Source: a virus. Taken from it: DNA of 26,459 nucleotides. The first letter of the stretch is position 1. Every line of letters begins with the position of its first letter. This document shows positions 1 through 1,380 of this stretch, one piece after another. Position numbers and translations under genes: made by a program. The notes below the pieces were generated by a model. The model saw nothing but the letters and a program-made list of their open reading frames with translations. It searched no databases and was not told the DNA's origin. The DNA lies in IMG/VR virus record IMGVR_UViG_3300044612_000316, positions 1 to 26,459 of that record. One strand, 5' to 3'.

Positions 1-41
1 AGCATTTGGTTAATTGCTTGTAACTTAGTAATTAAGCCCAT
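1..41 (-). CDS. Tail tubular protein A (gp11-like), N-terminus only
   Basis: An ATG at 41-39 follows a very strong ribosome binding site (AAGGAGG, plus-strand positions 47-53) and opens a frame that runs off the left edge after 13 codons. The peptide reads MGLITKLQAINQM. The pattern of hydrophobic, Lys-Leu, then Ala-Ile/Val-Asn-x-Met/Leu is how gp11-type tail tubular (head-to-tail adaptor) proteins of T7-like phages usually begin, and gp11 follows the capsid gene in T7. The gene lies just downstream of the capsid terminator, so it would be reached by read-through or by a promoter not visible here. The assignment rests on position and a short N-terminal pattern, so it is an inference. Confidence 0.6.
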   Translation of the reverse strand, partial: MGLITKLQAINQM

Positions 42-54
42 ATAGCCTCCTTAG

Positions 55-91
55 AAAAAAAACCACCCGGCTCCCACTTAAGGGAGCCGGG
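55..91 (-). terminator. Strong intrinsic terminator after the capsid gene
   Basis: On the minus strand a perfect 10-bp GC-rich stem (arms at plus 82-91 and 66-75, CCCGGCTCCC with its complement) closes a 6-base loop. After three further bases comes a run of eight T (plus A55-A62). It lies between the capsid stop at 166 and the next start at 41. T7 has its main late terminator, T-phi, at the same place, just after gene 10. Confidence 0.92.
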
Positions 92-102
92 GGTAGATAT
101 GA

Positions 103-113
103 GATCACCTCCT
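103..113 (-). promoter_or_regulatory. Perfect 11-base Shine-Dalgarno sequence without a start codon
   Basis: The minus strand carries AGGAGGTGATC, complementary over 11 bases to the 3-prime end of bacterial 16S rRNA. No ATG, GTG or TTG follows at a usable distance. The nearest codon that could be used is an ATA 7 bases after GGAGG, opening a 22-codon frame straight through the terminator hairpin. It may be a remnant of a lost gene, a ribosome-holding or RNA-stabilising site, or a non-AUG start. A 16-codon frame at 116-166 (ATG overlapping the capsid stop as TAATG) ends just before it. Confidence 0.5.
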
Positions 114-165
114 CTTCAGACGCGGTTCATAAAGACAAACCCGAAAGTAGAGTGTGAATCAATCA

Positions 166-1380
166 TTAGACTACAGAGAAGTACTCTGAGCTGAAACCGT
201 TAGTGAGGTTGTTAGCAGCACCATTCAATGCAGCACGGAGTTCGGCTCTAGTTGGTGTAGAATCATTCATACCAACGATAGCGCGGCAAAGCTCTGGACG
301 GATAATACCAGTACCCTTCATCATGCTAGCTACGGTGAACTGAGTGTTACGACGAACATCAGCAACGGTATCAACCTTCATACCCTGTAGGGATAGACCA
401 GCAATTGCTTCCTGCTGGAAGATAATGCCGTGAAGATTAATTGTATCGCACTTTAGGTTGTACTTGGCAGAACCAATGGCAGCACCTTCAAGGTCTGTCT
501 TTGGTAGGTGATTGCTCTTGACAATCTTGACACCCATGTAGTCAAGGCTATCAGTCATAGCATTCATGCCCATTGTGTATGGAGCGCCTAGACCACCGTA
601 CTCGTCTGAACCACCAAACATTGGATTCTTGGTGAAGTTTAGACCAGCAAGAGCGGTGGCTGCGGTAGTTGAAATATCAGCAGAACGAGTCAAGCCAAGA
701 CCACGAATGACTTGGAAGACCTTTGGTGTAACAACGCAATAAACATTGGTAACCTGTACATCGTTTTCCTGACACTTGACGAGGTAATCTTCAATACCCT
801 CAAGAACCTTAAGAGCAGTTACTTCAGTTGCGGCTGAAGGAGCAACATTGCCTACATCAATTGGAGCTTGGAAAGCATTGGTAGTAAAGTCAGAACCACG
901 GGGATCACCTGTGATTGGAGCTACAGCGCAAGCAGCGAGTAGAGCTACGGCAATCTGACGATCACGGGTGTTAGCAAGAGTTAGACCTGACTGACGAGCT
1001 AGCTCTGAGCGGTAATCCCACTGAGTGATGAGCAAGTCAATGTTGTCGGTTTCAAAGTGAGCAGCCATTGGACGAGCATCAAGATTTACCTTGAAGGTAC
1101 GGCTGGTGTTGCCCTTACCTGAAAGCTCTTGACCAGCTTCCCAAGCAGCGTTGAGATCTACGGTTCCAGTAATTGGGAACTCGTATGAGAAACCACCAGA
1201 AATAGTACGGGTGGCAATCATGTTCTCAAACATATTGTACTGATCATAAGCGTTGATTACTTCGCCAGACCAGAGTGGGAGCCAGAGTTTATTTGCTCCG
1301 AGATTACCACCAGAAGTTGCAGCGGTGGTTGAAGTGCGGTAAACCATATCGGTTCCGGCTAATGGATCATTTAGTGGCAT
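166..1380 (-). CDS. Major capsid protein (T7 gp10-like)
   Basis: This 404-residue protein forms the icosahedral head shell. Its identity comes from length (T7 gp10A is about 345, marine relatives somewhat longer), its place directly after the scaffold gene, and a typical N-terminal half: a Gly/Ala/Thr-rich start, a FEN-x-IATRTI stretch near residue 51, an FPITG strand near residue 68 and a Gly-Gln-Glu-Leu turn near residue 83. The ATG at 1380 follows AAGGAA with a 9-base spacer. Codon use is balanced and GC is near 47 percent in the stretch counted, richer than the tail block upstream. It is the only gene here with both its own long leader (1381-1555) and a strong terminator (55-91), which fits very high expression. 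No slippery site for a 10A/10B-type frameshift is apparent at its end. Confidence 0.92.
   Translation of the reverse strand: MPLNDPLAGTDMVYRTSTTAATSGGNLGANKLWLPLWSGEVINAYDQYNMFENMIATRTISGGFSYEFPITGTVDLNAAWEAGQELSGKGNTSRTFKVNLDARPMAAHFETDNIDLLITQWDYRSELARQSGLTLANTRDRQIAVALLAACAVAPITGDPRGSDFTTNAFQAPIDVGNVAPSAATEVTALKVLEGIEDYLVKCQENDVQVTNVYCVVTPKVFQVIRGLGLTRSADISTTAATALAGLNFTKNPMFGGSDEYGGLGAPYTMGMNAMTDSLDYMGVKIVKSNHLPKTDLEGAAIGSAKYNLKCDTINLHGIIFQQEAIAGLSLQGMKVDTVADVRRNTQFTVASMMKGTGIIRPELCRAIVGMNDSTPTRAELRAALNGAANNLTNGFSSEYFSVV

Follow-up and report, generated by a model that had tools for sequence, protein, structure and literature searches.

The major capsid message of an uncultured T7-like phage carries in its 3' untranslated region (UTR) a structured RNA, identified here by sequence comparison, that has no Rfam match in the loci scanned. 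Its hairpin, P1, stands at the capsid stop codon and holds in its 3' strand a Shine-Dalgarno (SD) sequence with no start codon behind it. A ribosome-binding site normally marks the start of a gene, but uncultured T7-like phages have conserved this one past a stop codon and within a hairpin that covaries; very short AUG-started ORFs (micro-ORFs) follow it in some relatives. If 30S subunits do dock on this site, 16S pairing would have been kept as an end-of-message signal, coupled to ribosomes finishing the coat protein.

The window, by which we mean the whole stretch of DNA analyzed, is a virus contig of 26,459 bases. It was assigned to a T7-like phage because of its gene set (capsid, scaffold, head-tail adaptor, ribonucleotide reductase, DNA polymerase, primase-helicase and single-subunit RNA polymerase), and all recognized genes lie on the minus strand. 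The T7 gene order is capsid, terminator, gene 11; the same order is found in isolate relatives, in which a tail tubular protein A is annotated 3' of the capsid gene. Among the host clues considered, WhiB was not found in 12 records and no tRNA was found in 16 loci, while all isolate matches were below 60 percent identity and gave no host assignment. Following the capsid stop codon are 52 nt, AGGAGGTGATC, TCAT, ATCTACC, the terminator hairpin with its T tract, and the AAGGAGG-CTAT-ATG of a gp11-like gene, whose ATG is 62 nt downstream of the start-less SD. The features of the region are:

166-1380, minus strand: major capsid gene (phrog_267, E 3.9e-27), stop codon at 168-166
144-157, minus strand: 5' strand of P1, UCAC-A-CUCU-A-CUUU, in the minimum-energy fold; directly behind the capsid stop and resembling the 16S tail
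116-166, minus strand: 16-codon ORF overlapping the capsid stop, inside P1
105-117, minus strand: 3' strand of P1, GAAG-A-GGAG-GUGA, in the minimum-energy fold and the covariance-model match; overlaps the 11-mer
103-113, minus strand (read from 113 to 103): AGGAGGTGATC, complement of the 16S tail on the capsid coding strand, no start codon behind it
94-98, minus strand: ATCTA, with which the invariant ATCTACC (98-92) opens, 4 nt past the 11-mer; end of the covariance-model match
66-91, minus strand: intrinsic terminator hairpin followed by a T tract, with one compensatory pair among relatives
1-41, minus strand: start of the gp11-like tail-tube gene, ATG at 41-39 and SD AAGGAGG at 52-46; runs off the window

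The earlier note had described the 11-mer as a perfect 11-base SD, stronger than that of any real start in the window, which is followed by no start codon and lies just before the terminator of the capsid message. This description is borne out. The 11-mer is complementary over 11 bases to the 16S 3' tail GGAUCACCUCCUUUCU, which we assumed for all matches in place of that of the host, whose own tail may differ. It is the longest 16S-tail match in the window (the runner-up has 9 bases) and occurs there exactly once; sites with up to two mismatches number 10 against 6.5 expected, so near-misses are ordinary. The site is also the longest 16S match, or tied for it at 10 nt, in four other whole contigs, again in single copy. 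A repeated phage promoter was ruled out by this single occurrence in each of the five sequences checked. No ATG, GTG or TTG lies 2-15 nt after GGAGG except a GTG within the 11-mer, and the hairpin at 91-66 with its T tract comes next. Initiation at the internal GTG was rejected: its frame is not kept among relatives, as their distance to the next invariant block varies between 3, 4 and 5 nt. The earlier suggestion of a start at ATA running through the hairpin was likewise abandoned, as the ATA is not conserved and the spacer varies in both length and sequence.

Conservation of the 11-mer in the absence of a start codon, which the earlier note had proposed as a check, is extensive. A search for capsid homologs, made independently of the SD, yielded 67 loci, of which 5 end before the region and 62 are readable. 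GGAGGTGATC without a start codon is present in 54 of these 62; in three of the 54 the first A of the 11-mer is replaced by C. The other eight comprise five loci that lack the element (L035, L036, L046, L056, L058) and three, L060-L062, in which the 11-mer serves as the SD of gene 11. From the gene-11 side, 80 homologous loci were found and 78 tested (two begin inside the gene), with the element in 71. Many contigs are near-copies, and distinct sequences are thus a better count than loci. Across 42 distinct elements GGAGGTGATC is invariant but for one A to G change (L286), although these were gathered with a loose pattern that already demands most of these letters; in the same 42, substitutions and indels affect the spacer (3-5 nt), the preceding stretch and the sequence past the terminator. 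Scanning with a pattern produced 116 stretches, a count conditioned on the pattern itself. In a wider set of 92 loci, thinned by capsid from 206 readable ones, GGUGRU...AUCU follows the stop codon in 45; in three of these (L060, L062, L392) the match is the SD of gene 11 itself, and 42 remain. As controls, the pattern occurs in 3 of 92 3' ends of capsid genes, and shuffling predicts about 0.5 of 92; the set derives from searches with four different capsids, and the fraction is not a census. No isolate carrying the element was found by DNA search or in the seven isolate junctions examined. The same 11-12-mer stands directly before the gene 11 ATG as an ordinary SD in L060-L062, L392-L394 and L399.

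The region of the window that contains the element folds with a z-score of -5.74, and its minimum-energy structure includes P1. Farther relatives have the same layout with other stems, such as CUCUCUGU/ACAGAGAG or CCCUUCUG/CAGAAGGG, followed by GGUGAUC and then AUCU. When the 3' strands of P1 were swapped between 14 lineages, the duplex weakened from -15.8 to -11.5 kcal/mol per lineage and none of 50000 permutations was as good, whereas for control pairings with downstream sequence 33236 and 25950 of 50000 were. For the window lineage taken alone the P1 partner was not lineage-specific (rank 6 of 15), a rank obtained with an anchoring that misplaced the loci reading GGTGGTGATC; the swap-test figures use the corrected anchoring. 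A pairing of the SD with the downstream AUCUACC, picked by RNAalifold on a MAFFT alignment, was rejected by the same test (48208 of 50000 as good).

Covariance models built only on distant relatives locate the element in the window. R1, made from eight relatives with no member of the window clade, has its best window match at 161-94 (E 0.00045; next 0.32), and its successor R2, made from 14 sequences again excluding the window clade, finds the same 161-94 (E 0.0011; next 2); all these E-values are rough. In the 14 rows of R2 every inner-helix cell pairs, double changes occur in four of the seven inner pairs, and the covariation score is 0.314 compared to at most 0.135 when slid, with the caveat that the rows were aligned to the model itself and the alignment leans towards the structure. 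Within the window clade, R2 matched 25 of 32 loci in place (E 0.0017 to 0.95) and missed seven, with two off-site matches (L011, L016); none of 18 loci without the element was matched. Applied to a mixed set of 51, it matched L402, L413, L417, L423, L451, L396 and L400 in place, gave one match on the opposite strand, and missed several GGUGAUC...AUCU loci, for example L377, L382, L397 and L409. Rfam 15 returned no match at gathering threshold in four loci; in ten loci scanned up to E 5, the only hit was a weak, sub-threshold, off-site match in L417 (E 0.17). Twelve of these 14 Rfam-scanned loci carry the element.

The SD strand resembles the 16S complement beyond what its composition predicts. 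Over 14 lineages, 16S pairing of the nine nt upstream of GGUGAUC was -18.2 compared to -14.5 for their own shuffles (0 of 2000), and over the nine lineages outside the window clade -16.8 compared to -14.4 (15 of 5000), although the lineages share descent and the counts overstate their independence. Exceptions are L382, L397, L409 and L483, where 16S pairing is weak. Selection for 16S pairing is therefore likely in most lineages and strongest in that of the window. GGAGG does not change within the window clade, unlike its 5' partner and the paired bases next to it.

Two kinds of short ORF accompany the element. The 16-codon ORF that overlaps the capsid stop has counterparts of 14-17 codons in relatives, with length and frame mostly kept and a pN/pS of 0.71; in the largest group the three codon positions are equally variable, and a frame-shift is seen in two types. 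Considered by eye for a T7 gene 10-type programmed frameshift, it lies in the -1 frame in most lineages of the clade, whereas L024 and L045 have it in frame 0 after two stop codons. A selected peptide was rejected on the grounds of the pN/pS value and the frame-shifts, and P1 accounts better for the sequence; the ORF probably does not encode a selected peptide. L030-type loci (16 rows) have a one-base difference in a G run, by which the short ORF stops 8 nt before the GGAGG block, with the SD and AUCUACC unaffected.

The second kind, the micro-ORF, starts at an AUG 4-6 nt after GGUGAUC and is found in 11 distinct relatives' elements: ten (L408, L413, L414, L415, L417, L419, L423, L427, L428, L451) and L552. 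An L117 row was left out as a chance match inside a gene. The predicted peptides (MSRCIY, MLSCIY, MVICIW, MKICIY, MMICIW, MKSCIY, MRCIY) follow the consensus M-x(1-2)-C-I-[YW]-stop over 5-6 codons, and UGA, UAA and UAG are all used as stops. Among 40 stretches found by pattern, 12, which are repeats of nine distinct elements, combine a P1-like context with a stop that follows at once, and all 12 have gaps of 3 or 6, which keep the frame; the remaining 28 have no P1-like context and gaps of 3 to 9. Start-less lineages instead read AUC UAC (window clade) or AUC UAG (L354, L356-L358, L377, L396, L400), with the AUC near the distance from the SD core that AUG occupies in the AUG-bearing lineages.

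The distance from GGAGG to the core of the terminator hairpin is 16 nt in the window and 15-17 nt in relatives. In L328 and L354-L358 a hairpin without a T tract stands directly behind the element, and the terminator is likely further downstream. Several relatives have a second hairpin downstream of the element, with an invariant 8-nt loop, GCUAUCUA, and 6-bp stems that differ between lineages (L328 at 6465, L354 at 3360, L356 at 2771, L357 at 3329, L408 at 3037, L419 at 3305). Of the 42 distinct GCTATCTA sites, 6 have such a stem and 36 can form no more than three pairs, which suggests that the second hairpin is part of a larger structured RNA in these phages.

The reading we favor, tentatively and at a little under even confidence, is that the SD is masked by P1, is freed by the ribosome that ends capsid translation, and in the window clade docks a 30S subunit without efficient initiation. 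A ribosome terminating at the capsid stop would cover the 5' strand of P1, and a 30S subunit, either just released or new, could then dock on the exposed SD. In some relatives the micro-ORF would next be translated; in the window clade, where only AUC lies near the start position, the 30S would park. With the usual 30S footprint, a docked subunit would abut the terminator hairpin or reach its 5' arm. Of the possible consequences for decay or termination, the likelier would be that this end of the capsid message is shielded during its translation; alternatively, read-through into gene 11 would be tuned. Folding estimates are consistent with such unmasking: in the window the cost of opening the SD falls from 9.6 to 5.3 kcal/mol when the nucleotides under the terminating ribosome are kept unpaired, and it falls in 15 of 16 elements, barely in L024 (10.7 to 10.5) and with a rise in L377 (10.1 to 12.0), a drop that is a model estimate and partly follows from P1 itself. 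Also in favor are the retention of the start-less SD in both sets of loci, the swap-test and covariance-model results for P1, 16S pairing better than that of shuffles, and the AUG micro-ORFs at the corresponding position in relatives. Counting against it are the weak 16S pairing of L382, L397, L409 and L483, the behavior of L377 and L024, the failure of the SD-AUCU pairing in the swap test, the unspecific P1 partner of the window lineage and the loci that R2 misses. A broader version, which we hold more loosely as one possibility, is that a mimic of the 16S tail at the coat-protein stop codon masks the SD until each finishing ribosome frees it, that some phages translate a 5-6-codon C-I-Y/W peptide while others use the docked 30S itself, and that these elements form a new class of phage 3'-UTR RNA.

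The covariation of P1, together with the retention of GGUGAUC and AUCU where GGAGG is not kept, would also be expected of a structured RNA, or of a signal bound by a protein, that acts in the termination, processing or decay of the capsid message. In that case GGUGAUC...AUCU is what is recognized, and the 16S match arises incidentally because one strand of P1 is rich in purines. The second covarying hairpin with its invariant loop, and the weak 16S pairing in four lineages, point the same way. We nevertheless regard this as doubtful, as composition does not account for the fit of the upstream strand to the 16S complement in most lineages, and GGAGG stays fixed in the window clade while its 5' partner and neighboring paired bases change. 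An attenuator of the leader type, in which a ribosome on the micro-ORF, or one initiating weakly at AUC in the window, sets the balance between termination and gene 11 transcription, would account for the conserved C-I-[YW]-stop ORFs, for the position of AUC in start-less lineages, and for the terminator that directly follows in the window clade. It is unlikely in our view: no competing antiterminator is supported, the downstream pairings failing the swap test; L328 and L354-L358 have a hairpin without a T tract directly behind the element; and the AUC start is putative only.

The earlier note had read the 11-mer as a STAB-SD. What stands of this is a strong SD that starts no gene, is kept by selection and precedes a terminator; it is not free, being one strand of P1 at the capsid stop in a wider RNA family. 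A STAB-SD in the plain sense, with a 30S on the SD blocking a 5'-to-3' nuclease and so protecting a read-through or processed gene-11 message, is highly improbable. A start-less SD 62 nt upstream of the gene-11 ATG does fit the definition in PMC4113751, but the SD lies within P1 and upstream of the terminator, and the conservation of P1 and AUCU would be left unexplained. The same note had held that an ATG-started gene in relatives would indicate decay. Some distant relatives do have an AUG-started ORF of 5-6 codons; the start-less form is nonetheless itself near-invariant across diverged loci with indel-rich flanks, by which gene-start decay was ruled out and a relic of a lost gene start is hardly credible.

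Comparison with known systems gives partial likenesses. According to PMC4113751, the STAB-SD of Bacillus thuringiensis cry3A is an SD-like sequence without initiation that is proposed to keep a 30S subunit bound to the RNA, and it lies near the 5' end of the 5' UTR. The phage element resembles it in that neither the window nor 54 of 62 relatives have a start codon there, which would make it SD-like without initiation, but it lies behind the capsid stop, in a hairpin and before a terminator, and is 5' only of a gene-11 read-through RNA rather than in the 5' UTR of a stabilized message. Leader-peptide attenuators share with the AUG-bearing relatives a very short ORF and an SD close to a terminator; the window clade differs in having no standard start behind the SD, and the downstream pairings show no covariation that would indicate a structure competing with the terminator. 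The bar minigenes of bacteriophage lambda are likewise minimal ORFs, only very few codons long and preceded by an SD, and the micro-ORFs of the relatives are alike in this respect. According to PMC5009743, the T7 terminator CCCC, more than 200 nt downstream, affects gene 10 frameshifting, an effect called unexplained there; no such element was seen in the seven isolate junctions examined. No description of such an element was found in the titles and first abstract lines of open-licence papers, or in passages of PMC4113751, PMC5009743 and PMC6498945.

Three further observations were made on these contigs. An ORF at the end of the window contig (26014-26427, minus strand) has a weak match to DUF932 (E 4.6e-5). 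The 67-kb contig IMGVR_UViG_3300044695_001206 (L006, L014, L098, L127) has two capsid genes as well as two copies of the element, located near its ends, and may be a joined or mixed assembly. In L384, the sequence 3' of the capsid gene contains AAGGAGGTGATCC, which matches the 16S-tail complement over 13 bases and again has no ATG close behind it.
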